Shown here piece by piece: positions 1,213-25,916 of a stretch of DNA of 35,228 nt. This DNA comes from an uncultured Lentisphaeria bacterium. GTDB lineage: Bacteria > Verrucomicrobiota > Lentisphaeria > Victivallales > UBA1829. The position numbers and the translations under genes are program-made. Location of the stretch: the NCBI GenBank assembly GCA_949282305.1, contig CASDPB010000077.1, positions 1 through 35,228 of the forward strand, written 5' to 3'. A model generated the notes under the pieces. It searched no databases and was not told where the DNA came from. It worked only from the letters and a program-made list of their open reading frames with translations. The first letter of the stretch is position 1. Each line of letters starts with the position of its first letter.

Positions 1213-2154
1213 ATGCGTTTAACAGATTTAGTGCACAGGTATGAAAACAATCCGCTGCTGACAACCAGGGATCTGCCGGGCAGCGACGCGGTGTTCAACT
1301 GCGGGGCGGTGAAGTTCCGTGACCGCTACATCCTGCTGGTTTCCACCAGCATTCCGGGAGCACCGGGGAACGGACGCAACATTCATGTGGCGGAAAGCCG
1401 TGACGGCATCCATTTCACCATTCGCCCCAAACCCTTTATCGAAGCCGGAACCGACGGACCGTTCACGCAGTTTGATTATGACATCTGCGATCCGAGAATT
1501 ACCGTGCTCGAGGGAAAAATCTACATTACCTACCCGGCACATCTACCGGGCGTCGGCATTGTCGGGGTGCTGGGAACAACCGAAGATTTCGAGACCTTCC
1601 GGAGAATCGAATACATCAGCCTGCCGCACAACCGGGTGCCGATTCTGTTCCCGGAGAAAATCAACGGAAAATATTACCGGATTGATCGTCCCTACGGTTT
1701 CTACGGGGGAAGCATGTGGATTTCCGAATCCCCCGACCTGACCTACTGGGGAAGACACCGGATGCTGTTCAATAAAGGATCTCAGGTATGGAACAGCGAA
1801 AAGGTCGGACCCTCGGGACCTCCGATCAAAACCAGCAGAGGATGGCTGGTCATCTTCCATGGAGTTTCCGGCGCGATGATGGCAAATTCAGCTTATCATC
1901 AGGGAGTGGCAATGCTCGATCTCAACGATCCGACCAAGGTGATTGCGCTTCCGAACCAGTATATCATGGCTCCGGAAACACCCTTTGAACGGGTTGGACG
2001 GGTTCAGAACACGATTTTCTGCACGGGGCACGTGGTGGAGGACGGACAGGTGAAACTGTTTTATTCCGCCTGCGATACATGTATATGCCTTGCCACATTT
2101 GACCTGGAGGAAATGGCGGAAGCCTGCATGAGCGTCCCCCAGGGAAAATGGTGA
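1213..2154 (+). CDS. GH130-like glycoside phosphorylase/hydrolase
   Basis: A 313-residue five-bladed beta-propeller protein resembling GH130, whose members phosphorolyse or hydrolyse beta-mannosidic linkages. Visible marks are the VFNCGAVKF strand near residue 28, CDPRIT at 92-97 (the Asp matches the general acid in the family's (E)DPR motif), RVPILFPEKINGKYY near 142, and GPSGPPIKTSRGWLVIFHGV. There is no signal peptide, so action is cytoplasmic. Length suits GH130. A GGAG site at 1199-1202 sits 10 bases before ATG 1213 and the gene follows the UroD-like gene closely, so they are probably cotranscribed. Phosphorylase versus hydrolase cannot be decided: that depends on phosphate-binding residues I cannot align here. 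Cytosolic mannoside breakdown would fit the GH38 enzyme in the facing locus. Confidence 0.85.
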   Translation: MRLTDLVHRYENNPLLTTRDLPGSDAVFNCGAVKFRDRYILLVSTSIPGAPGNGRNIHVAESRDGIHFTIRPKPFIEAGTDGPFTQFDYDICDPRITVLEGKIYITYPAHLPGVGIVGVLGTTEDFETFRRIEYISLPHNRVPILFPEKINGKYYRIDRPYGFYGGSMWISESPDLTYWGRHRMLFNKGSQVWNSEKVGPSGPPIKTSRGWLVIFHGVSGAMMANSAYHQGVAMLDLNDPTKVIALPNQYIMAPETPFERVGRVQNTIFCTGHVVEDGQVKLFYSACDTCICLATFDLEEMAEACMSVPQGKW

Positions 2155-2277: not shown

Positions 2278-4230
2278 ATGAAAACGATCGACTACAAGAT
2301 TTATTATGACAAAGTGCTGGCAGGCTGGATCGGCAAATCGTTGGGCGGTATTGTCGGAGCACCCTATGAGTGTCACAAGCAATTCAATTTTATCACGGAA
2401 GACAAACTCTGGCCGGACACTCTGTATCCCAATGACGACCTCGACATACAGGTGGTCTGGCTCGAGGCGTTACAGCAGCTCGGCGTTGCTCCGACCAGCG
2501 CCCAGCTTGCCGAATTCTGGCAGAAACACTGTTTTTACGTGTGCTGTGAATATGGAATTTTCATAGACAATCTGGAACACGGCATTTATCCTCCGCTTTC
2601 CGGCACCTGGCGCAATGAATTTTTCCAGGCCTCCGAAGGCTGCCCCATCCGCAGTGAAATATGGGGCTTCATTGCTCCGGGAAATCCGGCGCTTGCCATG
2701 GAGTATGCGGCAAGAGACGGAGTATTGGATCATGGAACCGTTTCGGTCGAACTGGAACAATTCCTTTCTGCCGCCGCGTCATTGGCGTTTTTTGCAGAAA
2801 ACCCGGTCGAGCTGCTGCGGGAAACCTGCAAGGCTGTCCCTGCGGAAAATGCCGGAGCACGCCTTTTCCGCGAAGTCCATGCCATTTGCCAGAACAATCC
2901 CGAACCGTTTGATGCGTGGCGAAAACTGGTGCGCAGATTCGGGCATCGGGACAGCACGAACGCACTGCTGAACAACGCCTTCGCCTTCACGGCGCTGCTG
3001 CTTGGCGGCGACAGTTTCAAGGAGACAATGCGGCTGTGCATCCAGTCCGGCTGGGACTGCGACTGTTCGGCGGCTACAGCCGGAGCCCTGTGGGGAGTCC
3101 TTCACGGCAGCAGCGCCCTGCCCGGCGACTGGCTTGAACGCATGGGGAAAAATCTTGTCTGCGCCTGTGAGATCCCTCATAAAAATGCGTCTCTTGCCGA
3201 ATTCGCCAGAGAGACCACCGAACTGGGAATCGAAGTTGCAGCGCTCATCAACCGCGACCTGCGGATAGAAAATGCTCCCGTCGTTCCGGTCCGCCCCCTC
3301 CCCGAACCGGAAGTCGCCATTCAGGTCTCCTACCCGGAAGACTGCCCCGTATTGTGGAGTGACCGCCCGACCAGGATCACCCTGACGATATGCAATCCTC
3401 TGAGCACGTCTTTTTCCGGCATGTTATGTCTGGAACTGCCCCAGGGGGTGGAAACGGACTGGACAAGCCGTAAAGTGGAAATCGCCCCGGGAAAGACAGT
3501 GCTGGAAGTCGTTGTCCGCAGAAAATCCCCGGATGATTTCCTGCACGATCACTACCTCTTCCGGGCCAGGCTGACCTCCAGCGACGGAGCGGTCACAGCG
3601 GAACGCACCTTCGGGCTGGACGGCGCCGTCATCTGGTCCGTTTACGGTCCATACTGGGATATGTGGGACAAGGATGCATATGCAGACTGCCCCTATCAAA
3701 ACGAACAGCTCACCTGCAATCCCGGCAATCTGCCGGAATTCTGCGGAGACGCCTTTAACACCCATGTGCGTCTGGACTATCCTTACTTAGATGAAAACCG
3801 TCTGCTCAAAGAGGACATCCCGGAGGAATCGCCTTTTCCGGTCGAGACGGCAGGACATCGGATCAGCCGCGAGGATCTGTTCGGATTCAACGGGGCGTCA
3901 TGCTGTTATCTGGTACGGGAATTCAAGGCGGACCAGCCTGTGGAAAACGTGCAGTTCCTCTTTCAGGCGGATTGCCCGTTTGTCTGTTATCTTGACGGGC
4001 GGCGCCTCTGTTCCAGCGAACGACATGAAAATCCCGGCACGGCTTACGCTGCCGCGCCGCAGTTCGACCTGACGGGCAGTCTCCAGCGGATTGTCATCAA
4101 ACTCGTGACGCGCCTGGAACATTTTCAATGCAGTCTGAACTTTGTGCGCCCTGTCGAAGTCCGGACGCACGCAGTTTCGCCCTATGTATCCGGCATCTCG
4201 GTCAGACTGCCTGAGAAAGTCGAAAAATAA
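2278..4230 (+). CDS. ADP-ribosylglycohydrolase-family protein with C-terminal sandwich domains
   Basis: Residues 1-320 are an ADP-ribosylglycohydrolase (ARH/DraG) fold: GWIGKSLGGIVGAPYE near residue 16, NDDLD at 52-56 and the second metal site WDCDCSAATAGALWG at 259-273, which corresponds to the family's GxDTDT-AA-GA motif with Cys in place of both Thr. The metal-binding Asp residues (53, 54, 260, 262) are kept. After residue 340 there are about 310 more residues, mostly beta: an Ig/NEW3-like stretch (ITLTICNPLSTSFSG) and a possible jelly roll. Ordinary ARH proteins are near 300 residues. There is no signal peptide. The sugar-locus context argues for hydrolysis of an N- or O-glycoside rather than protein de-ADP-ribosylation; that is inference. 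The ribosome-binding site is weak (123-base gap). Confidence 0.82.
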   Translation: MKTIDYKIYYDKVLAGWIGKSLGGIVGAPYECHKQFNFITEDKLWPDTLYPNDDLDIQVVWLEALQQLGVAPTSAQLAEFWQKHCFYVCCEYGIFIDNLEHGIYPPLSGTWRNEFFQASEGCPIRSEIWGFIAPGNPALAMEYAARDGVLDHGTVSVELEQFLSAAASLAFFAENPVELLRETCKAVPAENAGARLFREVHAICQNNPEPFDAWRKLVRRFGHRDSTNALLNNAFAFTALLLGGDSFKETMRLCIQSGWDCDCSAATAGALWGVLHGSSALPGDWLERMGKNLVCACEIPHKNASLAEFARETTELGIEVAALINRDLRIENAPVVPVRPLPEPEVAIQVSYPEDCPVLWSDRPTRITLTICNPLSTSFSGMLCLELPQGVETDWTSRKVEIAPGKTVLEVVVRRKSPDDFLHDHYLFRARLTSSDGAVTAERTFGLDGAVIWSVYGPYWDMWDKDAYADCPYQNEQLTCNPGNLPEFCGDAFNTHVRLDYPYLDENRLLKEDIPEESPFPVETAGHRISREDLFGFNGASCCYLVREFKADQPVENVQFLFQADCPFVCYLDGRRLCSSERHENPGTAYAAAPQFDLTGSLQRIVIKLVTRLEHFQCSLNFVRPVEVRTHAVSPYVSGISVRLPEKVEK

Positions 4231-4376: not shown

Positions 4377-6932
4377 ATGTCATCATTATATGACAAAGTG
4401 AAAGAAGTGGCGGCCGGTCAAGTCCCCGCAAATTATCTGCTGCCGTTGTTCTGGCAGCATGGCGAGTCCGGGGAAGTGCTGGCATCCGAAATCAAGGCAA
4501 TGCATGACGGAGGAATGGCGGCCTTCATATTGGAACCGCGTCCCTATCCCGGTTTTCTAAGTGAAGCCTGGTTCGATATTGTGGCATTTGCGCTGAAGGA
4601 AGCGGCAAAATACGGCATGAAGGTTTACGTCTTCGACGACAGCCATTTCCCGAGCGGATACGCCAATGGAGTCATTGCCGAAAAATACCCGCAGCATCTG
4701 CGCCGAATGCTGCGCATGGATTGTCTGGACGCTATCGGCCCCCGTCCGGGCGTCTCCCTGGCGGTGGCGGCATGGAAAAGGTTTCCGGAAGATCGTTTCT
4801 TCAAAGTGACCGCGGTGAAAATGAACGACGGCGGCAACGGCTTGGAACCGCAGAGCGGTATTGATCTTACGGATCGGATCACAGATGGAAGATTGTATTG
4901 GGATCTGCCCCCGGGACGCTGGCGGATCTGCGTATTTCATCAAACCCGGGAAGGTGGAGAGGAACATACCAGGAATTACCTGAATCTGCTGAGCCGCGAC
5001 GCCGTGAAATGTTACATTGACATTGTATATGAGCCGCATTATCAGCGTTTCCAATCGGAATTCGGGCGCACATTCATGGGCTTTTTCAGTGACGAGCCGC
5101 GCTTCGGAAATGCTGCGAGCTACGACGCGACGCTTGGAAAAATGCCGATGGTGATTCCCTTCGACGATCAGCTTCCCGCCCGGCTGAATGCCGCGGCCGG
5201 AGAAGATTTCGGAAGACTGTATCCCTGGCTCTGGTTCGGTTCGGGTGACTGCGCCCGCCGTGCACGGTATATTTACATGGACACGGTATCGCGCCTCTAT
5301 TCGGAAAACTTCCCAGGTCAGATCGGCGCATGGTGCCGCGAGCGCGGCGTGGAATACCTGGGGCATGTCGTCGAAGATAACGGCGCGCACGCCAGAATCG
5401 GCTACGGCAACGGACACTTTTTCCGTTCGTTGAAAGGGCAGAGCATGGCGGGAATCGACACCGTGCTGCTGCAGAATGTACCGGAATTTACCGAGGGATC
5501 ATTTCCAACGCCTTTCAGTCCGCCGCTGGATGCACGCTTCTACCATTGGGGACTGGGAAAACTCGGCAGCTCCTGCGGTCATCTGAATCCCGCGATGAAG
5601 GGAAAGACGTTCTGCGAAATATTCGGCGCCTATGGCTGGAACGAAGGACTGCGGATGATGAAATGGATGACGGATCATTTTCTGGTGCGCGGCATCAACC
5701 GCCTGATGCCGCACGCCTTTTCTCCAAAGGATTTTCCCGATCCGGACTGCCCGCCTCATTTTTATGCGGGAGGACACAATCCGCAATGGCGCGCGTTCCC
5801 TGTCTGGAGCAACTATGCCAATACCCTGTGCCATCTGCTGTCCGACGGCGTTCATCAGGCAACGGCAGCCGTGCTGTATCATGCGGAAGCGGAATGGACG
5901 GGAGACGATTACGAACCGTTTGAATCCGTCGTCCGGACTCTGAGCAGAGGAAACATCGACTGCGACGTTGTCTGCAGGGACATGCTTGACGACGCCGCAG
6001 TGCAGAACAACCGTCTGCAAATTGCACAGGAATCTTTCGACGCTCTGCTCATACCTTATGCGCAGTCATGGCCGGAGGCTGTTGCAGCCACGCTCCGCCG
6101 AATCGCCGAAGCAGGAGTGCCCCTGGTCTGGATGCGCGAAAAGCCTCCGGCTCTGCCCGGAGATGTGGTGCAGCCCGGCAGCCTCGTCTCATATTTCCTC
6201 GAAAAAGGCTGGTATGATTTTAAAATCAGCCCCGTGATGCCGGATCTGCGTTTCTATCACTATTGTTTCCCCGACGGAGAAGTATATTTATTTGTCAATG
6301 AAAATACCGGAAAGTCTCTGGACGGAGAAATCACATTCCGGCAGATCAAGCCTCAGCTGGGTTACGACCCCATATCCGGGCAATGGACGGATTTTGCCGC
6401 AGACGCCCGGTTCCCGCTGCATCTGACGCCCTCGCAGTCCTGTCTGCTTTTCCGGGGACTTGACAAGCTGCCTGAAACAGTTTCCTTCTCGAATCCGGTT
6501 GAAATTACCGGAGAGATTCCCGGTCCGAATATATGGGAAATTTCCACGGCAACGGCGGAAGAGTATCCGGACTTCACTCTCTTCCAGTCCGCGGCCCCGG
6601 CTGGAAATCTGGCATTGCCCGGCAGTCTACCCTTTTTCTCCGGCACAATCCGTTACAAGGCACGGATCGAAGTCCCGTCCGGGAAAGTCGTCCGTCTGCT
6701 GGATCTGGGCGAGGCTTACGAAACAGCCGAAGTGGCCATAGACGGGAAACCATGCGGCATTCGCATCTGCCCGCCCTATCAATTCGCCGTGGAGCTGAAA
6801 TCGGGAAGTCACGAACTTCAGATCGACATCACCAATACGCTGGCGAAGAAATACGGCACCGGCATTTTCGACGCCGGCAGTCTGCAGGATCCTTCCGGTC
6901 TGATCGGGCCGGTCCGTCTTTTCGTCTCCTGA
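4377..6932 (+). CDS. GH106-like glycosidase (putative alpha-L-rhamnosidase-type)
   Basis: An 851-residue protein with the architecture of GH106 and related uncharacterised glycosidases. The N-terminal TIM barrel has the characteristic VYVFDDSHFPSGYANG segment near residue 85 and GFFSDEPRFGN near 235, where the Asp-Glu pair is a plausible catalytic site. A central region and a C-terminal galactose-binding-like beta domain follow, ending in SGLIGPVRLFVS, as is typical of GH2/GH106 sandwich domains. There is no signal peptide, so it is probably cytoplasmic. AAGGAG about 10 bases upstream supports ATG 4377. GH106 enzymes release alpha-L-rhamnose from pectic or host glycans, but this neighbourhood of families is broad and the substrate is a guess. 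It is the last plus-strand gene before the LacI regulator. Confidence 0.75.
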   Translation: MSSLYDKVKEVAAGQVPANYLLPLFWQHGESGEVLASEIKAMHDGGMAAFILEPRPYPGFLSEAWFDIVAFALKEAAKYGMKVYVFDDSHFPSGYANGVIAEKYPQHLRRMLRMDCLDAIGPRPGVSLAVAAWKRFPEDRFFKVTAVKMNDGGNGLEPQSGIDLTDRITDGRLYWDLPPGRWRICVFHQTREGGEEHTRNYLNLLSRDAVKCYIDIVYEPHYQRFQSEFGRTFMGFFSDEPRFGNAASYDATLGKMPMVIPFDDQLPARLNAAAGEDFGRLYPWLWFGSGDCARRARYIYMDTVSRLYSENFPGQIGAWCRERGVEYLGHVVEDNGAHARIGYGNGHFFRSLKGQSMAGIDTVLLQNVPEFTEGSFPTPFSPPLDARFYHWGLGKLGSSCGHLNPAMKGKTFCEIFGAYGWNEGLRMMKWMTDHFLVRGINRLMPHAFSPKDFPDPDCPPHFYAGGHNPQWRAFPVWSNYANTLCHLLSDGVHQATAAVLYHAEAEWTGDDYEPFESVVRTLSRGNIDCDVVCRDMLDDAAVQNNRLQIAQESFDALLIPYAQSWPEAVAATLRRIAEAGVPLVWMREKPPALPGDVVQPGSLVSYFLEKGWYDFKISPVMPDLRFYHYCFPDGEVYLFVNENTGKSLDGEITFRQIKPQLGYDPISGQWTDFAADARFPLHLTPSQSCLLFRGLDKLPETVSFSNPVEITGEIPGPNIWEISTATAEEYPDFTLFQSAAPAGNLALPGSLPFFSGTIRYKARIEVPSGKVVRLLDLGEAYETAEVAIDGKPCGIRICPPYQFAVELKSGSHELQIDITNTLAKKYGTGIFDAGSLQDPSGLIGPVRLFVS

Positions 6933-7126: not shown

Positions 7127-7155
7127 TTGATTTTCTCCGCAGATTGCGGTATTTT
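7127..7155 (+). promoter_or_regulatory. Putative sigma70 promoter of lacI
   Basis: TTGATT (7127-7132), a 17-base spacer and TATTTT (7150-7155). The expected transcription start near 7162 leaves a leader of about 34 bases before GTG 7196. The longest reading frame of lacI would start with the TTG inside the -35 box, which argues against that start. Confidence 0.45.
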
Positions 7156-7195
7156 GTATGAGGAATTATCATTTGACAACGGAGTTTCCGCCACT

Positions 7196-8245
7196 GTGAA
7201 AAAACCAGACAATGCACCTAGAAAACCGCGCATCAGCGATATTGCAGCCATGGCGGGAGTCAGCCGAATGACAGTCTCTCAGGCGCTCAATCCCCGCGCC
7301 GGTTCGGTGAGGGTTTCGCCGGAAACCCGGGCGAAAATCCAGCGGCTCGCGCAGGAGTTGAACTATCGCCCGAATCTGGCTGCGCGGCAGCTTGCGGGCG
7401 GAAGCAGCAAGATCGTCGGATACATCCTTGATGCGCAAAGCACGGAAAACTGGATCTCCTGCATGGCAACGGTCGAACAGATTCTCGGAGAAGCCGGATA
7501 CCGGCTTCAGATCGGGGCGCAGCACGATAATTTCCAGGCGATAGAAGAACAGGTTGCCGATTTCCACGCCCGCAGTGTGGACGGAATCATCTGCTGTTCC
7601 CATACTTATCTCGAATTCGGGGCGGAAATCGCACCGCTGTTTGAAGGTTTCCCCAACAAGGTGTTCATTCATGAACCGGTCATTCCCGGGACTGTCTCTT
7701 TCGTCGCGCAGGATCAGCGGGCTGGCATTCACATGCTGGTCCGCCGGCTTCTCTCGCGCGGATGCAGGGCGCCGTATCTGATTACGCCGGGCATCACGGA
7801 CCATGTGCATTACATCCGGATCAACGCATTCCTGGAGATCATGCGGAAATTCCATTTCCGTCATCCCGAGCAGTATTCCTTCCAGCTTGCCCCGCCGGAG
7901 GGACTTGCCACGGAAGCAGGCTGCAACTGGCTTCTCGACCGGCTTCTCCCGCTCCGCCCGGACGGACTGATCGTTTACAGCGACATCATTGCAATCCGCC
8001 TGATCAATCTGCTGAAAAAGCGCGGGCTGACGGTTCCGCGGGATATTGCGGTCGCCAGTCACCGCCATACAAAATACGGAGAAGCCAACTCGCCCTCCGT
8101 CACAGGGCTGGACTATCACTTTGCCGAAGTCGGGCGGGACGCGGCGGAACTGCTCCTCAAGTTCATGCAGATGCCGAAAGCGGAAGAGCGTCCGGTTGTC
8201 GGGAAATACATTCAGCCCAGCCTGTTTTCCGGCGAATCCGCGTGA
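7196..8245 (+). CDS. LacI-family transcriptional regulator
   Basis: A 349-residue LacI-type repressor if started at GTG 7196; the frame is open back to a TTG at 7127 (372 residues). GTG is preferred because 7127 lies in a likely -35 box, and the family normally begins just before the helix-turn-helix with a short basic KKP...RKP tail. The N-terminus shows ISDIAAMAGVSRMTVSQALN, then SPETRAKIQRLAQELNYRPNLAARQL, the classical HTH and hinge helix. The remainder is a periplasmic-binding-protein-like sugar sensor (VDGIICCSH, GYIL, RDIAVASH segments). It binds DNA as a dimer and releases it on binding a small ligand, probably a sugar. Operator-like palindromes follow the gene, before the pseudopilin it probably controls. 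Confidence 0.93.
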   Translation: MKKPDNAPRKPRISDIAAMAGVSRMTVSQALNPRAGSVRVSPETRAKIQRLAQELNYRPNLAARQLAGGSSKIVGYILDAQSTENWISCMATVEQILGEAGYRLQIGAQHDNFQAIEEQVADFHARSVDGIICCSHTYLEFGAEIAPLFEGFPNKVFIHEPVIPGTVSFVAQDQRAGIHMLVRRLLSRGCRAPYLITPGITDHVHYIRINAFLEIMRKFHFRHPEQYSFQLAPPEGLATEAGCNWLLDRLLPLRPDGLIVYSDIIAIRLINLLKKRGLTVPRDIAVASHRHTKYGEANSPSVTGLDYHFAEVGRDAAELLLKFMQMPKAEERPVVGKYIQPSLFSGESA

Positions 8246-8549: not shown

Positions 8550-9356
8550 ATGGACATTTACAGGAAAAGCGGAGATTTCCGCAGTATTCACAAACAGGAA
8601 AACAATGGCGGAACGCACTGTTTCACATTGATAGAACTCCTTATCGTAATTGCGATCATCGCGATTCTTGCGGCAATGCTGCTGCCCGCTCTGAACAAGG
8701 CAAAAGAGAAAGCACAACAGATCAGCTGTGTCAGCAATATGAAACAGATCGGACTCGCTTCCAATCTGTATTCCGGCGATTATAAAGACTGGGTCATCTG
8801 CCGCCAGGCATGGGGAGAAGCCGGTGTGGAAACGGCATGGGCCGTCGCCTTCAGAAGACTGGGATACCTCCCCGCGGAAAAAGCATTCCAGTGTCCCTCG
8901 GAAAAAGTGACAACCATCGTCAAGATGCCGGGAGAGGATGGATATGATTTCAACAATCTTGAGAAGACATGGAGCTATGGAATCAGCTACAAAACATTCG
9001 GTGTGCCCGGAGATTCCATTCCCCGCCAGGTCAAAAACACGGAAGTCATGAAATACGGCGGCAATTCAGACACAATCGTATTCGGCGACGCCATTCCCCA
9101 GGACGGCACCTATCCCAGAACCGGAGAAAAAGGAATGATTGAATTCGACGGCGGAGCCAATCCCGCACGGTTCTATCCGAGCCCCGCATCTTATTACGGC
9201 TCACCCTTCCTGCGGCACGGAAGAAACTCCGGAGTCTTTGCCTTCTTTGATGGCCATGCAGGCGTCATCCTGCGCAGAGAACTCGTCAACAAGAAATACT
9301 GGTCTCCCAGACAGTGGTCGGACTCAAAACCATTTGTCCGTTACGGGGAATGGTAA
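8550..9356 (+). CDS. Pseudopilin-like protein (prepilin N-terminal domain, H-X9-DG-type C-terminus)
   Basis: A 268-residue type II secretion/type IV pilin-like protein. The hydrophobic helix [16 protein letters not shown] starts at residue 25 after a 24-residue leader and keeps the conserved Glu at +5. The residue before the cleavage site is Cys24 rather than the usual Gly. The C-terminus carries [15 protein letters not shown], a variant of the His-x9-Asp-Gly motif that defines a large PVC-bacterial family (here 10 residues separate His and Asp-Gly). Such proteins are highly expanded in Lentisphaerota and Planctomycetota and their role is unproven; suggestions include cell-surface binding or secretion accessory factors. 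Located directly after lacI with a dedicated promoter and operator, it is probably one of the strongest regulated targets. AGGAGA lies upstream of ATG 8550. Confidence 0.9.
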
Positions 9357-9423: not shown

Positions 9424-10305
9424 TTGAAAAAAGAAAGTTCCTTGTTTTATTATTACTCATGGGAGCATGTGCCGGACGTGATGATCCCGAACATTTTTGC
9501 GGAATTCAAGGCGAACGGGGCAGAATGCCTTGTGTTCAGCCATGTATGGGCGGCAAGAATCCTGCGCGAACCCTCATTCTTCGCTCCCCTGATGACAATG
9601 GCGCGGAAAGCCGGAATCCGGCTGGGAGCCGTTCACGCGCCGTGGGGCGCGGCATTCGATCTGAACTGCTCCGACACGGCACGGCGGAAAGGTCTGATCG
9701 AAGACCACAAAACCGCAATGGCGTATGCCGCCGACGCCGGATGCAAAACCTACACGATTCATGTCGGTGCCTACAGCTGGGTTCTGGAGCATGTCCCGAT
9801 GCCGCGTCTGCGCGACCTCGCCCTTGACACGCTGGACAAACTGCTGCCGGAAGCGGAAAGACTCGGGCTCGTAATCGCCGTGGAAAACAGCTATGAACCG
9901 CCGAACAGCGCATCGGAAGTCGTCGGGCTCGTCTCGAAATTCGACTCCCCGCATATCGGATGCTGTTTCGATACCGGTCATGCCTGCCTGATGTCGCCGT
10001 TTCCCGGCAAGGAACGCTCGAAATATTTTGATGAAATCAATGATGCATGGTGGGAGGGGCTTGTGGAAACGGCGGATTCCTTTGAGAAGATGAAACCTTA
10101 CATTGTCACCTCGCATATCCATGACAACGACGGTTACAGCGATGCGCATGATCTGCCCGGACGCGGACGGATCGACTGGAAACGGCAGATTGAAAACCTG
10201 CGCGCCTGTCCGCGCCTGATTTCGCTCCAGACCGAAGTACGGACGATTCCCGGCTGTCTGCCGGTAAAAACGCTCGTGGAAACCTTCCGCGCCATTCTGA
10301 ACTGA
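9424..10305 (+). CDS. Sugar phosphate isomerase/epimerase-like TIM-barrel protein
   Basis: A 293-residue xylose-isomerase-like/AP-endonuclease-2 fold protein. Expected metal ligands are visible: Glu154 in VIAVENSYEPP, Asp183 and His186 in CFDTGHACL, the SHIHDNDG segment near 230-237 with a downstream DAHDLPGRGRIDW, and Glu271 in LQTEV. Family members isomerise or epimerise keto-sugars, or act on inositols. There is no signal peptide, so it is cytoplasmic. The start is TTG 9424, preceded by AGGA (9414-9417) at a good distance; no nearby ATG fits. It lies 67 bases after the pseudopilin gene and 30 before the secreted hydrolase gene, so it should be in the same transcript. The substrate is unknown. 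Confidence 0.85.
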   Translation: MKKESSLFYYYSWEHVPDVMIPNIFAEFKANGAECLVFSHVWAARILREPSFFAPLMTMARKAGIRLGAVHAPWGAAFDLNCSDTARRKGLIEDHKTAMAYAADAGCKTYTIHVGAYSWVLEHVPMPRLRDLALDTLDKLLPEAERLGLVIAVENSYEPPNSASEVVGLVSKFDSPHIGCCFDTGHACLMSPFPGKERSKYFDEINDAWWEGLVETADSFEKMKPYIVTSHIHDNDGYSDAHDLPGRGRIDWKRQIENLRACPRLISLQTEVRTIPGCLPVKTLVETFRAILN

Positions 10306-12531: not shown

Positions 12532-13596
12532 TCAGCTCTTCCGGGCTTCATTCTCATGCCCGCCTCTCTGTTCCTGCGCAATCTTATCCCATTCCCGCAA
12601 AGCCGCCAGTGCCGTTTCCGGCTTTACAAGAACGCCAAGTTCCAATTCCTTGACAATCCCTCCCGCCGGGTCATAAAGATGTCCGGCAACCCTCCGGACA
12701 AAAGCACGTGCATCATCCGGCGTTTTTGTCAAGACCTTCTGACGGTCGATCTCCCCGAAAAAGGTCATCTTCCCCTTGGCGCATGCCGCGATCTTTTCCA
12801 GATTCATGCAGCCGATCTGGAAATTTCCAATGTCAAGTCCCAGTTCCACCAAATCAGGAATGATCGCTTCAATATTGCCGTCCGAATGCATAAAGACGAA
12901 TTTTCCGGAAGCATGACAGCAGTCAATGAATTTCTTATAAATCGGCTTAAAAATCTCCCGCCAGGTCTCCGGTGCAATCAGCAGGGCGCGCTGGGATCCC
13001 CAGTCATCCATATAGGCAATCCCATCCACCTCTGTTTTACACCAGAATTCGATTTCTCTGAGATAGAAATCGGAGATCGCCGCCAGAATCTTGTCTACAT
13101 TCTCCCCGCGCAGTGCCATATCCATCATTGCATTTTCTGTCCCGCGCAGAAACTGATACCGTTCCCAGGGACGCGGATTGCAGCCGGCAAACACGAATTT
13201 ATCGGTGTTGCGGCAGAACTCGTTCACTTTGGCAATTGCCGCCGCTTCGTCTTTCGGCAGGAGTTCATAAGGGGGGCGCAAACTGCTTAAATCCTCCAAG
13301 TCCGGAATCAGGGGAGTTTTCACTTCGCCGATCATCCCCGGATTGATATTGGTGAATATACAGCCCCATTCATCCACATGAATCCCTTTTTCAAAAGGAT
13401 CACCGGACAGGCAGGAGGACGGTTCATAAGGCGCAGGCGCCCATTCACAATCCGACGGAAATTCCTTCATAATTGCCTGATGCGCTTCCGGACTGGACCA
13501 AATGAAAGCCGGCAGAGCAAAAACACAGCATCCCAGCCGTTCCGGAAAATCAAACGTAAAAGTTTTGCGCAGAACCTCACGCGGTGTCTGACTCAT
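12532..13596 (-). CDS. Uroporphyrinogen decarboxylase-like (UroD/MtaA superfamily) protein 2
   Basis: A 354-residue UroD/MtaA-superfamily protein. A longer frame begins six codons upstream, but there the GGAGGAG lies inside the first codons. Placed before the internal ATG (MSQTPREVLRKTF) it is an ideal ribosome-binding site with nine bases of spacing, so 13596 is the start. Motifs parallel the first paralogue: DFPERLG near residue 16, YMDDWGSQ near 195, and HSDGN at 237-241, again without the zinc Cys of methyltransferases. No signal peptide. It is the last minus-strand gene of the right locus, 181 bases beyond the SMR-like gene, so cotranscription is possible rather than certain. Reaction unknown; not a heme gene by context. 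Confidence 0.85.
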   Translation of the reverse strand: MSQTPREVLRKTFTFDFPERLGCCVFALPAFIWSSPEAHQAIMKEFPSDCEWAPAPYEPSSCLSGDPFEKGIHVDEWGCIFTNINPGMIGEVKTPLIPDLEDLSSLRPPYELLPKDEAAAIAKVNEFCRNTDKFVFAGCNPRPWERYQFLRGTENAMMDMALRGENVDKILAAISDFYLREIEFWCKTEVDGIAYMDDWGSQRALLIAPETWREIFKPIYKKFIDCCHASGKFVFMHSDGNIEAIIPDLVELGLDIGNFQIGCMNLEKIAACAKGKMTFFGEIDRQKVLTKTPDDARAFVRRVAGHLYDPAGGIVKELELGVLVKPETALAALREWDKIAQEQRGGHENEARKS

Positions 13597-13777
13597 ATCT
13601 TCAATCTCCTCCATTTACAGTTTCAGAAGTACCTCCGCGGCACCTCTGTCACTTTAAAAAAATCAAAAATCATTTCCATCCGCAATTCGACAACGGTATT
13701 TCCGCCCGAACCGCACAGGAAGTCCGGCTGTCTCACCGCCTTCGCTGAATGACAGAGAATCATCTCCAGGGATTCCT

Positions 13778-20930: not shown

Positions 20931-22928
20931 TTATTGCTCCCGGCTTTCACAGTAAAGCGCAGTCCAGGGGGCAAGCTCCGGCAATGCAAAGATCCGATAG
21001 CCATGATCGGCGCCTGCCGCATTCAGCGTCATTTCCTTTCCGCACTGACTGCACACAGTCAGAACCGGTGACTCCTGCTTCAGAAGAAGCGTGCCTCCCT
21101 GCATCGGATCCTGCGACATATTCCAGATCAGGGCATGATTCCGGCGCACCCAGAGCGCCGCCCGGTGATAACTTGCCAGGTATCCGGGCAGTTCCTCTTT
21201 GGAAAGCCAGCGGAAAAGCTGTTTCATCCGCTCCGACTGACTGCGGTAGAACAGCGTCCCCCAGGGATAATATCCTTCAACCGCAATCCTCCCGCCGAGG
21301 GAGTTGGTGTACACTCCGGAAAGACATTTGCCGAGCTCCACCCCGCAATAATCAACGCAGCGGCTCAATACCTGAGCCCCTTTGCAGGGCTCCAGGGAAA
21401 ACGCGGGCTGATACCAGAAGGACTGTCTGCCATTACGCCGTTTCCCGGCTGCGCGTCCATTCAGCGGGTGATCCGCAAACTCTTCAATGGCATCTTCCCG
21501 TATAATCTCCTTCACCGTAAAACCGGTCTCCCCGCCGAAGCCGCGCGAATTCAGCGTTTGCAGAGCAAAGCCGTCAAGGTAGGCTCCTGTTCTCAACATG
21601 GCGTGAATTTCCTCATCGCTCATTGATTCCACGGTCTGCCCCGCGACGGCGTAAAGGCAGGCATCTTCGGCGGTGTATGCGGCAGGCAGACCGATCTTCT
21701 GCAGTTCGCTGTTCAGAAAGCCCGGATCGTCGCTCCCCTGAAGTGTCAGCCACCTGCCGTCCTGCCCGCGATGGCTGAGATGAATCATTCTGCCGACGCC
21801 GTCAAATATTCCCTGCGGAGAAATGCGGCGGCAGCCATGCACAATGCGGTCTAAAAAGCCGCGGTTGCCGTTCAATGCCTGAATCAGCGACTGATTGACA
21901 TCGAAGTCGTCCCATTCACGTTCTCCGAAGACATTGTAAGCCACGCCGGTGGCGCCGGCGGCACAATAAATCTGCGGTTCCAGCGCGGTCATGAAATTGC
22001 TCTTATTGAGCCGTTGATAGTTGAAGCTCTCCACTTCCGCCTCAATGACTTCAACAGACTTCGGGAGCATGGCTGCCTCCCGTCCGATGCTGTTGGCTTT
22101 GTCCAGAATCTCATCCGGACAGCGGTCAAAGTAAAAGCCTCCTCCGGGACGCCACCAGACAGGACGGCGCCCCTCCCCCGCCAGGGCGGCAGCGTGACCG
22201 GCGAAATCAAGTCCGCAAATCGGCTGAAAACCGTCCATCTGCCCCAGAATGATTGACGGATCGACGGCATGGACAACCCGCTCGATATATCCCGCAATGT
22301 CCTCTATGACGCGCGCATTCCATTCCAGCAGTGCGGCGCGGCGTCTGCGTCTTTCCCCGGCGTCACTGCACTCAAAGAACGCCGGCAGATCCGCCAGCTC
22401 CCCATGATAGCCGATGAACGCGCTCAGCTTCGGAAAACAGGACGGGCAGAAACATCCGAAATCATAAACCTTTCCATGGTTGGACAGCCGCAGATCATCA
22501 TCAATCCAGATGAAATCCGGATGACATTCCGCGGCAAGGGTATAGCACTCCCTGATATAGTTCTCCCGCCAGACCGGATCGGCGGAGCAGAAGTTGCCGG
22601 GACAGGGCTGCCCCGAACTGTACACCATCACCTGACCGCCGGTCGCGGCATGGCGGACATTCTCATAGGTATGCCCAAGAGTGCACAGATGATTGATTCC
22701 CGCTTTCCAGCCGCGTTCATGCATGGCGGCAATGCGCCGTTTCAGAATCGCAAAGCGCGAACGCATGACGTCCATGGGGGGCGGCGTATGGTTGTTATTG
22801 CTGAAAAAGGCAAACTCGTCAGCCATGCGGGTTGCTTCTATTGTCTGAAGCAGCTCGTTGAAATCCTCGTCCTTTTCCCAGAGCTGAACCGTCAGCCGGT
22901 AGGATACATGTGCATTGCCGGAAGCCAT
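20931..22928 (-). CDS. Uncharacterised TIM-barrel glycosidase-like protein
   Basis: A 665-residue protein with no family I can name. The first half reads as a TIM barrel: FNELLQTIEATRMADEFAFFSNN, GWKAGINHL and DFIWIDDDLRL near residue 140, which could hold an active-site acid, followed by CFCPSCFPKLSAF, a Cys-rich loop seen in some GH42-like and related barrels. A middle domain resembles the amidotransferase-like domain of GH42, and the C-terminus is a beta domain (LLKQESPVLTVCSQCGKEM). There is no signal peptide. AGAGGAAAAC before ATG 22928 supports the start. Its place between a secreted protein and three known glycosidases suggests a cytosolic hydrolase. Confidence 0.6.
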   Translation of the reverse strand: MASGNAHVSYRLTVQLWEKDEDFNELLQTIEATRMADEFAFFSNNNHTPPPMDVMRSRFAILKRRIAAMHERGWKAGINHLCTLGHTYENVRHAATGGQVMVYSSGQPCPGNFCSADPVWRENYIRECYTLAAECHPDFIWIDDDLRLSNHGKVYDFGCFCPSCFPKLSAFIGYHGELADLPAFFECSDAGERRRRRAALLEWNARVIEDIAGYIERVVHAVDPSIILGQMDGFQPICGLDFAGHAAALAGEGRRPVWWRPGGGFYFDRCPDEILDKANSIGREAAMLPKSVEVIEAEVESFNYQRLNKSNFMTALEPQIYCAAGATGVAYNVFGEREWDDFDVNQSLIQALNGNRGFLDRIVHGCRRISPQGIFDGVGRMIHLSHRGQDGRWLTLQGSDDPGFLNSELQKIGLPAAYTAEDACLYAVAGQTVESMSDEEIHAMLRTGAYLDGFALQTLNSRGFGGETGFTVKEIIREDAIEEFADHPLNGRAAGKRRNGRQSFWYQPAFSLEPCKGAQVLSRCVDYCGVELGKCLSGVYTNSLGGRIAVEGYYPWGTLFYRSQSERMKQLFRWLSKEELPGYLASYHRAALWVRRNHALIWNMSQDPMQGGTLLLKQESPVLTVCSQCGKEMTLNAAGADHGYRIFALPELAPWTALYCESREQ

Positions 22929-22960: not shown

Positions 22961-25195
22961 TTATTTTCCGCCGTCATTGCCGGAAAGCTGAATTAGATAA
23001 GTCCTGCCGGCAGGAATGGTGAACGTGACCTGTGTTTTCCCGGAGTCCGTCTTGAATTCGAGCGGAGCATTGTCCACAAGTTCATTTGCACCGGTGAAGA
23101 CTGCCTTCGCATAGTCTTCCGCGCGCAGACTCAGTGTGACGCGCCGGGCTTCCGCCGCGGGATTCAAGACCGTGAAATAGAGTCCGGCGGACGGCTGACT
23201 TCCCCAGCGTTCCACCAGCGCCCCCTGATTCACGGACGCATTGGTCAGCACTTCCCAGCCCGCCCGGTTGATCAGGTGAAGCAGACGGGCATATTTCGGG
23301 CATATCTTCAGCAGACGCTTTGTCACTTCCGGTTTATTCCAGTTGTTGGAAGTGCCGGAATAAATGCCGTACATCAACGCCCGGTTCATCCTGGCGTCCA
23401 TCTCCTCGACTGTCGTCTCCACAAAGCTCAGACGGTAGTCCTGAGTCGAGATCGGCTTGCGTCCCGCCAGAAAGCGGAACGTCCGCAAATCCGCCGGGTT
23501 CAGGGGTTTGGAATCGACATGCTCACCGGCTCCCAGGGCGTCGAGATAGCCGATATGGGACGCGATGACCGGATGCCAGCTGTTGTCGAAAATCGCATAG
23601 CCGTGCTGATCGCAGTAACGCCGGAATTCCGCCAGGAAGTCCGCATTGCTCAAGGCGTTGTGCAGAGCGGGAACCGCCTTGCCGTTCACCCTTGCAAACG
23701 TAAGGGGAGTCTCGGTATATTTCCAGTGTTCACGGCGGAAATTGTAGTTCGCCCAGCCTGCGCCATAGACAACACTGTCCAGATAGACAACATCCAGCTT
23801 GCGGTTGATGCTTTTCAGCTGCTTTGCAATATGCTCCACCTGATTCAGCTGTATGTCATAACGGTTCGGATGCGGCAGTCTCGGGCTCGGATTCGCCAGC
23901 AGAAAGCCTCCGGACCAGTTTTTACGCTCCACATTAGGAGTCCACGGGAAATCCTTCATCGGATAGCAGTGGAAAACCCACTCTCCGTCTTCACTTTCTA
24001 TCGCGCTGTTGTTCAACGCCTTTACGGTAAAGTCGCGCGTCAACCCCGGATAACGGTCCGACTCAGTAGTCGACTTCAGATCCTTAGCCAGGAATTTACG
24101 ATACTTCGCCGTATTGATCGGAATGTAAAAATCTTTAAAGACACTGGTCGGCAGTGTGCTGATATTCCTCTTGTTCGCCTTGACCCACTCATGCGGAATC
24201 GGCATCCAGATTGTCCAAGGCTCCGAATACTGCATTGCCGCCAGACCGGTTTTCTGGATTGCCGGAATGATCTCCAGCGGTTTTGAATATTCAAACTCCA
24301 TCTGGTCATATCCCATTCCGCACTTGAGCGCCGCCTGCAGTTCCGACTCGGCGACCCACAATGCCCAGCCGCCGTAAGGTGCGCGGCTTTCAAAACATTC
24401 GGGGAAAGCACGGTAGTAATTCTGCATTGCGCCACGGATTCCGGTTCCTCCTTTTCCGCCTAAAAAGGCAAACTGGAAATCCGCACGGTGCGGAAAGTTC
24501 TTCGTAATTCCGGACAGTCCGAGAGGAACGCTGACACTCAAATTGGCAGTACCGTTGTCCGCAACGTAGACGCCATAGGAGAAAAAGCGCGTTTTGCGCA
24601 GAGAATGCGCCAAAGCCACGTTCTGTTTTTCATTGTCAAGACTGCCCAGCGGAATCTGAGACTGATTATGACCGGAAAAACCATCCACCTGATTGGCTCC
24701 GCGCCCCGGTGTGACTTTTTCCACCCCCAGTGTGTCGTTGCTCCAGGAGTTGCCGAATCCCCAGTTCCCGGGCTTGAGAGCCGCAGAAAATGCAATCGTC
24801 ACCGCCCGGTCTTTCCGTTTCAGGTCAATGACCGTGCAGTCCGCCAGCATGGCATTGCCTGTCCCGGACGAGAAAACGGCGTCAAGCTCCAATCCGAGCT
24901 CCCTGCAGACTCCTTTATAGAATATGCGACCGTCTTTTTTATAGACCTTGACGGGGAGAAAGTTTCCTTTCTGTCCAGTCATTTCATCGGTCGCAGAAAA
25001 ACCGCCCGGTGCAGTTTTCATTGCCAGTTCCGTCCCGGCAACCGTCCACGAAGACAGCGTCCCTTTTTCCGTATCAAATCCAATGGCCTGCACAGCCGGA
25101 TCGCCCAGCCGCACTTCCGCCGCATTCAATGCGGTGGCAGTCAGAATGCCTCCCAGTGCCAGAGCAGACCAATATGCGCAATATAACTTTCTCAT
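22961..25195 (-). CDS. Secreted uncharacterised glycosidase-like protein
   Basis: A 744-residue exported protein: residues 1-25 are a signal peptide, probably cut after LNA. A beta-rich domain (26-260) resembles galactose mutarotase-like or GH36/GH31 N-terminal sandwiches. The middle is barrel-like, with VVYLDSVVYGAGW near 470 and DALGAGEHVDSKPL near 560 as likely active-site strands, and a C-terminal beta domain ends in FTIPAGRTYLIQLSG. This layout matches retaining alpha-glycosidases of clan GH-D or GH101-like enzymes, but no specific family is certain. It is the only exported hydrolase-like product of the right locus, the counterpart of 10336-12375. AAGGAAAAG upstream supports ATG 25195. 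Confidence 0.65.
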   Translation of the reverse strand: MRKLYCAYWSALALGGILTATALNAAEVRLGDPAVQAIGFDTEKGTLSSWTVAGTELAMKTAPGGFSATDEMTGQKGNFLPVKVYKKDGRIFYKGVCRELGLELDAVFSSGTGNAMLADCTVIDLKRKDRAVTIAFSAALKPGNWGFGNSWSNDTLGVEKVTPGRGANQVDGFSGHNQSQIPLGSLDNEKQNVALAHSLRKTRFFSYGVYVADNGTANLSVSVPLGLSGITKNFPHRADFQFAFLGGKGGTGIRGAMQNYYRAFPECFESRAPYGGWALWVAESELQAALKCGMGYDQMEFEYSKPLEIIPAIQKTGLAAMQYSEPWTIWMPIPHEWVKANKRNISTLPTSVFKDFYIPINTAKYRKFLAKDLKSTTESDRYPGLTRDFTVKALNNSAIESEDGEWVFHCYPMKDFPWTPNVERKNWSGGFLLANPSPRLPHPNRYDIQLNQVEHIAKQLKSINRKLDVVYLDSVVYGAGWANYNFRREHWKYTETPLTFARVNGKAVPALHNALSNADFLAEFRRYCDQHGYAIFDNSWHPVIASHIGYLDALGAGEHVDSKPLNPADLRTFRFLAGRKPISTQDYRLSFVETTVEEMDARMNRALMYGIYSGTSNNWNKPEVTKRLLKICPKYARLLHLINRAGWEVLTNASVNQGALVERWGSQPSAGLYFTVLNPAAEARRVTLSLRAEDYAKAVFTGANELVDNAPLEFKTDSGKTQVTFTIPAGRTYLIQLSGNDGGK

Positions 25196-25247: not shown

Positions 25248-25916
25248 TTATGGATGCGGCTTTGTACCATAACTCGGCCAGACTCTTCCAAAGGCGTCTT
25301 CCGGAATGCTCCAGCGGTTTCCTTCCGTAAATCCTTTCAATTCACTGCGGGCATAATTGCGGACAGAACCATCCAGCTTCCCGAAGTTTCCGGTAAACTT
25401 GTGACTCCATGAATCAATCGTCTCAACTGCCATATTACCGCACCCATCACTCCACAAAATCCATTTCGGATTATTGGTCGATTTTATCGGAACTTCATCA
25501 TCAGTATTGCAACAGCGCCAGTATTTCTGATCGGGATGGTTCCCTGCCCAGAAATTATAGGTAAAGTTAGCACTGTCTGAAGCCAATGCTTTCGCAGAGG
25601 GACACCCCTGTGCCAGTTTTAGTGAAAAACCGTAATCGCAATAATCGTAATACACAGAACGATAGTCGCTTCCAGTAGGCCCATTATCGATAGACGGCCA
25701 AAATGGATCAGTTCCTTTTTCCGTCAGCCAATCCTTATTGTCGGCTGCGTACATGAAAGAAATCACCCCCAGTTGCTTCAGATTGCCTGCACAGGAGATG
25801 CGCTTTGCCGCATCGCGAGCCTTGGACAATGCGGGCAGCAGCATCGCCGCCAGGATCGCGATGATCGCTATTACGACCAGGAGCTCGATCAATGTAAACA
25901 CTGTTCTTTGCCTCAT
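25248..25916 (-). CDS. Pseudopilin-like protein (prepilin N-terminal domain)
   Basis: A 222-residue pilin-like protein. The hydrophobic helix [16 protein letters not shown] starts at residue 7, with Val rather than Gly at -1 and the +5 Glu retained. Downstream [20 protein letters not shown] is the usual continuation in PVC-bacterial members. The end shows [20 protein letters not shown], a version of the His-x9-Asp-Gly motif with nine residues between His and Asp-Gly. The N-terminus would anchor it in the inner membrane, possibly in a type II secretion-like fibre. It sits 43 bases after the GntR-type regulator gene and 52 before the secreted hydrolase gene. AAAGGA before ATG 25916. Confidence 0.9.

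Follow-up and report, generated by a model that had tools for sequence, protein, structure and literature searches.

Does a protein with the fold of an ADP-ribosylglycohydrolase (ARH), encoded in the midst of glycosidase genes, act on ADP-ribose or on sugar chains? The question is raised by a 35,228-nucleotide stretch of DNA from an uncultured Lentisphaeria bacterium (the whole of which is referred to here as the window), in which the gene for such a protein is flanked by a GH130 gene (at 123 bp) and a GH106-like gene (at 146 bp), with a LacI-type regulator following them. GH42, GH38 and GH32/43-like genes lie further along the same window, and together these genes bear out the sugar locus proposed in the initial annotation of this DNA. 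The genes nearest to the ARH-fold gene, and one further gene that bears on its interpretation, are as follows.

1213..2154, plus strand: upstream neighbour, a GH130-type mannoside phosphorylase or mannosidase relative (PF04041, E=1.4e-44)
2278..4230, plus strand: coding sequence of the ARH-fold protein (650 aa, ATG start; full-length homologues at 28-57% identity)
4377..6932, plus strand: GH106-like (alpha-L-rhamnosidase-related) protein, the recurrent partner gene (PF17132, E=7.6e-9, matched over a short stretch; scores to AlphaRhamBT4145 and rhamnoside_JR fall under their cut-offs)
7127..8245, plus strand: LacI-type regulator (PF00356, PF13377)
9424-10305: AP_endonuc_2 gene (Pfam)

Other genes of the region may be recorded here. 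URO-D / MtaA-like (methylcobamide methyltransferase-type) genes occur twice inside the glycosidase region (146-1192 and 12532-13614); the first has a close homologue in another locus (L057:3610-4644), where it is located three genes upstream of the ARH gene. DUF1559-type pseudopilin genes are located near Lentisphaerota sugar loci, both in the window (8550-9356 and 25248-25916) and in L054, L055, L056, L063 and L098. Two long minus-strand ORFs among the glycosidase genes, at 20931-22928 (665 aa) and 22961-25195 (744 aa), have no Pfam match at E 0.001.

Architecture of the protein

The 650-aa ORF contains one Pfam domain, ADP_ribosyl_GH (PF03747; residues 16-283, E=2e-32), which scores 113.5 bits against a curated cut-off of 26.2; scores to the NCBIfam de-ADP-ribosylase models are far under their cut-offs. 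An AlphaFold2 model, for which the input was an alignment of 47 relatives, has a mean pLDDT of 94.2 and a pTM of 0.92. A Foldseek comparison of the protein with the PDB returned ARH3 (the closest), a Thermus ARH relative and DraG as top matches, 2cwc being among them. The ARH fold claimed in the initial annotation is thus present, both by sequence profile and by its all-helical predicted fold, and homologues of the same length are widespread. The protein can be divided into four parts.

2278..3252, plus strand: ARH catalytic-type domain, residues 1-325, all helical (Pfam PF03747, AlphaFold, Foldseek)
3310..3654, plus strand: predicted Ig-like beta-sandwich, residues 345-459, NEW3-like (AlphaFold models, Foldseek, weak NEW3 Pfam match)
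3655..3897, plus strand: linker with short helices, residues 460-540, opened by a conserved YGP(Y/F)W (model)
3898..4203, plus strand: predicted C-terminal jelly roll, residues 541-642 (AlphaFold models, Foldseek, GH2_N Pfam match)

The roughly 310 C-terminal residues had been likened to carbohydrate-enzyme accessory domains, and a fold prediction of residues 330-650 was proposed as a check. Modelled separately, the C-terminal 321 residues (pLDDT 91.4) are predicted to form an Ig-like sandwich and a jelly roll, and the best PDB match of residues 330-650 in Foldseek is the Ig-like and galactose-binding region of the Micromonospora viridifaciens sialidase (2bzd, 1w8o). Other matches include integrins, transglutaminases and further beta-sandwich proteins, and the TM over the two domains is low. 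Weak Pfam matches were obtained to the NEW3 domain (of alpha-galactosidase) in 3 of the 47 relatives, and to GH2_N (the GH2 sugar-binding domain) in one. The predicted fold therefore agrees with the earlier suggestion; the link to carbohydrate enzymes is the best reading of the two domains, and is short of proof, because the resemblance fits non-carbohydrate proteins as well and the Pfam matches are few and weak. No N-terminal signal peptide is evident on reading the sequence by eye, so that action in the cytoplasm, on imported oligosaccharides, is probable. For the ARH part, no GH catalytic family was found in Pfam or NCBIfam.

An altered metal site in a large family

In ARH3, the ligands of Mg-A are Thr76, Asp77, Asp78 and Asp316, and those of Mg-B are Asp314, Asp316 and Thr317 (PMC8141533, Table 2); in ARH1, Ser occupies both Thr ligand positions (PMC9738213). 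Alignment with canonical ARHs places the equivalent residues of the window protein as follows.

2368..2370, plus strand: Glu31, equivalent of ARH3 Glu41 (Glu flap), invariant in the subfamily
2431..2439, plus strand: metal motif 1, Asn52-Asp53-Asp54 (ARH3 Thr76-Asp77-Asp78; ARH3 ligands from PMC8141533)
3055..3066, plus strand: metal motif 2, Asp260-Cys261-Asp262-Cys263 (ARH3 Asp314-Thr315-Asp316-Thr317; ARH3 ligands from PMC8141533)

The four metal-site Asp residues (D53, D54, D260 and D262) are kept, just as the initial annotation had stated. It had also described the Thr residues as replaced, citing the string DCDC. The string is correct, and metal-ligand Thr residues are indeed replaced, although only at N52 (ARH3 Thr76) and C263 (ARH3 Thr317): C261 stands at a non-ligand position, where Thr is found in 104 of about 130 relatives and Cys in the window protein alone. 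We considered DCDC as a peculiarity of the window gene and rejected this, C261 being the only part of it that is unique.

Across some 130 aligned members of the subfamily the metal ligands invariably read Asn-Asp-Asp and Asp-x-Asp-Cys, in contrast to the (Thr/Ser)-Asp-Asp and Asp-x-Asp-(Thr/Ser) of known hydrolases. With the exception of one gapped fragment, G24, E31, N52, D53, D54, D151-H152, D260, D262 and C263 are invariant. The pattern PNDDL[DE][IL]Q was among those used to scan the genome collection, and for this reason the members recovered by similarity only are an important control: the same invariance holds in the 49 that have letters at the G24 to C263 positions. On this ground, and because Cys263 figured in none of the search patterns, we rejected motif searching as the source of the Asn/Cys motif.

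The conservation of the four metal Asp and the Glu-flap residue in about 130 members argues that the altered metal site is under selection. It also bears on the notion that the protein is a non-catalytic member of the fold, serving for example in sugar binding or as a scaffold. Such proteins have precedents in ARH2, for which hydrolase activity has not been demonstrated (PMC9738213), and in the ARH-fold proteins found within large complexes (8xks, 8xqw). However, ten active-site positions that are invariant across phyla do not make the pattern of a dead site, and we regard a non-catalytic role as the least probable of all the readings considered here.

Further changes set the subfamily apart. 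The ARH3 Asp34 position, in the GDxxG motif, is occupied by Gly24, and this is always Gly in the subfamily (as judged by alignment and by the same seven-residue spacing to the Glu). Every member has GxxIR(S/A)E(I/V/L)W where canonical ARHs have the substrate-pocket stretch GNGxxMR. Absent, then, are the Thr/Ser non-Asp ligands, the GDxxG Asp and the GNGxxMR stretch of the canonical hydrolases. In ARH3 itself, mutation of Asp34 (D34G) or of Glu41 severely reduces activity (PMC8319183).

The initial annotation treated the unusual site as particular to the window gene. This proved mistaken: it defines a large family, a variant of a known fold family, with at least 570 confirmed relatives in the genome-collection scan. 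The best 80 of these, many of them full length, include proteins of Lentisphaerota, Kiritimatiellota, Paenibacillus, Clostridia, Armatimonadota, Planctomycetota, Bacteroidota and archaeal MAGs. The ARH domain has homologues in 32 of 61 near genomes and, in the phylum as a whole, in 121 of 289, a single genome having as many as eight matches; no second PF03747 protein was found in the window genome itself, and a search of plasmids gave partial, distant matches only.

Three length classes, of 650 aa, 490-540 aa and about 700 aa, have D-x-D-C in common. Members of the third class carry (S/A/P)DDDI and GWDTDCN, together with an IGAQIFIDAFG stretch (L155, L156, L159, L160, L162, L163, L164). In a quick maximum-likelihood tree this likewise uncharacterised group of PF03747 proteins is sister to the N-D-D group, and all D-x-D-C proteins split from canonical ARHs, including the long-branched E. 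coli YegU, with an SH-aLRT of 100.

A sequence search of the PDB recovered canonical ARHs only, aligned mostly over the second metal motif, and no solved structure for the subfamily. Nor did we find an NCBIfam family that assigns it a function or, in the open-access literature, a characterised ARH-fold glycosidase, a named CAZy family or any function for the subfamily. Neither Pfam nor NCBIfam nor the open literature that we searched treats the Asn/Cys subfamily as an entity of its own, and in Pfam it is grouped with the de-ADP-ribosylases.

Gene neighbourhoods in other genomes

Neighbouring genes were tallied as the 25 commonest families in each set, a measure that may hide rarer single occurrences. 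Among the 137 scanned neighbours of the 650-aa class, 16 are sugar-type ABC permeases; solute-binding proteins, AraC regulators, GH127, GH51, GH42, GH106-like proteins, sulfatases and others also occur. The 490-540 aa class adjoins GH63, MGH1-like GH, DUF4838, L-fucose isomerase, FGGY kinase, GFO/IDH/MocA and AP_endonuc_2 genes. When canonical ARHs of the same phylum were subjected to the same analysis, the adjoining genes were instead those for DRAT (5 of 68), for Nudix and NrtR proteins and for ammonium transporters. It is therefore to the subfamily that the sugar context belongs, and not to the fold or the phylum.

This comparison bears directly on the idea that the protein removes ADP-ribose from sugar-catabolic enzymes and so regulates them, with the beta domains serving in protein recognition. 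The Pfam name, the retention of the four Asp and the Glu-flap residue, and the resemblance of the beta-sandwiches to protein-binding domains all speak for it. Yet every member has lost Asp34 along with the two Thr ligands, and no ADP-ribosyltransferase gene is among the 25 commonest neighbour families of either set (137 and 68 neighbours), as against the DRAT genes beside canonical ARHs; the lack of a second PF03747 protein in the window genome also counts against it. We consider de-ADP-ribosylation to be very unlikely.

A further alternative is some other chemistry on sugar chains, such as the removal of esters or acyl groups, or action on oxidised (keto) glycosides produced by GFO/IDH/MocA oxidoreductases. 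The loss of Asp34 implies that the chemistry has changed, and GFO_IDH_MocA and AP_endonuc_2 genes adjoin the 490-540 aa class, the window having its own AP_endonuc_2 gene. These neighbours are, however, not general in the 650-aa class, and the explanation seems to us distinctly improbable.

The linkage to the GH106-like gene is tight. A homologue of it lies downstream of the ARH gene in L055 and L056 (the latter probably the same record as G016), at a distance of about 5 bp, and in G022, at about 27 bp; in L103 it is upstream, at about 17 bp. In L096 it is found two genes downstream, and in L067 two genes upstream. The linkage is seen in 5 of 80 loci, many of which are partial, in addition to the window and G022, and spans two phyla (Lentisphaerota, Paenibacillus, Lachnospiraceae). 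Close copies of the window GH106-like gene are present at only six places among the 61 near genomes. By simple arithmetic, a single-copy gene would fall by chance within 3 kb of a given gene in about 0.15% of 4-Mb genomes.

Proposed function and relation to known systems

ARH enzymes cleave at the anomeric carbon of a ribose whose hydroxyls are bound to the metals. A scheme of this kind is suggested for the subfamily by its conserved Asp/Glu set, with Asn and Cys taking the place of two Thr and with a different substrate pocket. On balance we lean towards the view, in line with the glycosidase proposal of the initial annotation, that the window protein belongs to a subfamily that has turned from ADP-ribose chemistry to become an intracellular, metal-dependent glycosidase acting on short imported oligosaccharides. 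The broader proposal is more tentative, and in our judgement falls a little short of an even chance: that there exists a widespread family of ARH-fold glycosidases, now named protein ADP-ribosylglycohydrolases, with a two-metal centre that includes Asn and Cys ligands (N-D-D / D-x-D-C). It would extend over Lentisphaerota/Verrucomicrobiota, Bacillota, Bacteroidota, Armatimonadota, Planctomycetota and archaeal MAGs.

Such a glycosidase would bind two divalent metals at equivalents of the ARH3 MgA and MgB sites, site A being formed by N52, D53, D54 and D262, and site B by D260, D262 and C263. From general coordination chemistry, site B would be expected, through its Cys ligand, to favour softer metals (Mn, Fe, Co or Zn) over Mg. 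The substrate sugar would be held on the metals by its neighbouring hydroxyls, as ribose is in ARH3, and a metal-associated water, assisted by E31, would cleave the glycosidic bond. The Ig-like and jelly-roll domains may contribute to the pocket, by shaping or extending it, or may bind glycan. The enzyme would work alongside GH106-, GH130-, GH51- or GH127-type partners and would probably attack from the chain end, in exo mode. The GH neighbours are diverse and so name no single substrate; L-arabinofuranoside or L-rhamnoside specificity (a furanosidase or rhamnosidase) is a weak guess, prompted by the gene neighbours and by the fact that the parent family acts on ribofuranosides.

If the subfamily cleaves glycosides, an enzyme so far missing from carbohydrate-degradation clusters would be supplied, and it would become possible to test directly a metal-dependent mechanism that differs from the one used by classical two-carboxylate glycosidases. 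The database name 'ADP-ribosylglycohydrolase' is read as denoting regulators of protein ADP-ribosylation, and such readings would then need revision. A case in point is the abundance and enrichment of PF03747 in plant-associated (rhizoplane) Verrucomicrobia, which was interpreted as protein de-ADP-ribosylation (PMC7251102): some of those proteins may belong to the sugar-locus subfamily, and for proteins of the Asn/Cys type the interpretation is doubtful.

Comparison with known proteins begins with entries named 'ADP-ribosylglycohydrolase family protein' from Paenibacillus, Clostridia, Victivallis and others (among them L067, L070-L072 and L098, the last from the cultured Victivallis vadensis DSM 14823). 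These share the architecture and the Asn/Cys motifs and are fellow members of the subfamily, likewise without an assigned function. The accessory region of the M. viridifaciens sialidase resembles the C-terminal part in that a jelly-roll carbohydrate-binding domain comes after an Ig-like one, but identity is about 11%, TM across both domains is low and the catalytic domain is unrelated.

E. coli YegU, a putative ADP-ribosylglycohydrolase encoded by yegTUV, has the PF03747 fold and an operon that includes a sugar kinase. An alternative reading is that the window protein hydrolyses nucleosides, sugar nucleotides or NAD-derived ribosides in the service of sugar loci, much as has been outlined for YegU. 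The parent family acts on ADP-ribosides, yegU adjoins both the kinase gene and that of a putative nucleoside transporter, and the operon has been linked to ADP-glucose and glycogen (PMC10819704). YegU, however, lacks the C-terminal domains, has the canonical motifs (TDD / DTDT / GNGAAMR) and clusters with canonical ARHs in the quick tree; with its motifs canonical, we rejected it as a near relative of the subfamily. The subfamily, for its part, has lost Asp34 and the GNGxxMR stretch, and nucleoside kinases and transporters are not among its common neighbours (the 25 commonest families per set). Hydrolysis of nucleosides or related compounds is therefore unlikely, although not to be dismissed lightly.

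The systems closest in fold are ARH3, ARH1 and DraG (PF03747). The window protein shares with them a fold made up of helices throughout (with a target-normalised TM of 0.72 to ARH3) and the positions of the four metal Asp and the Glu-flap Glu. The subfamily differs in having Asn and Cys for the Thr/Ser ligands, Gly for Asp34 and a changed GNGxxMR stretch, and the window protein in its 310 extra residues and in its setting, which is a sugar locus and not an ADP-ribosyltransferase/Nudix context.
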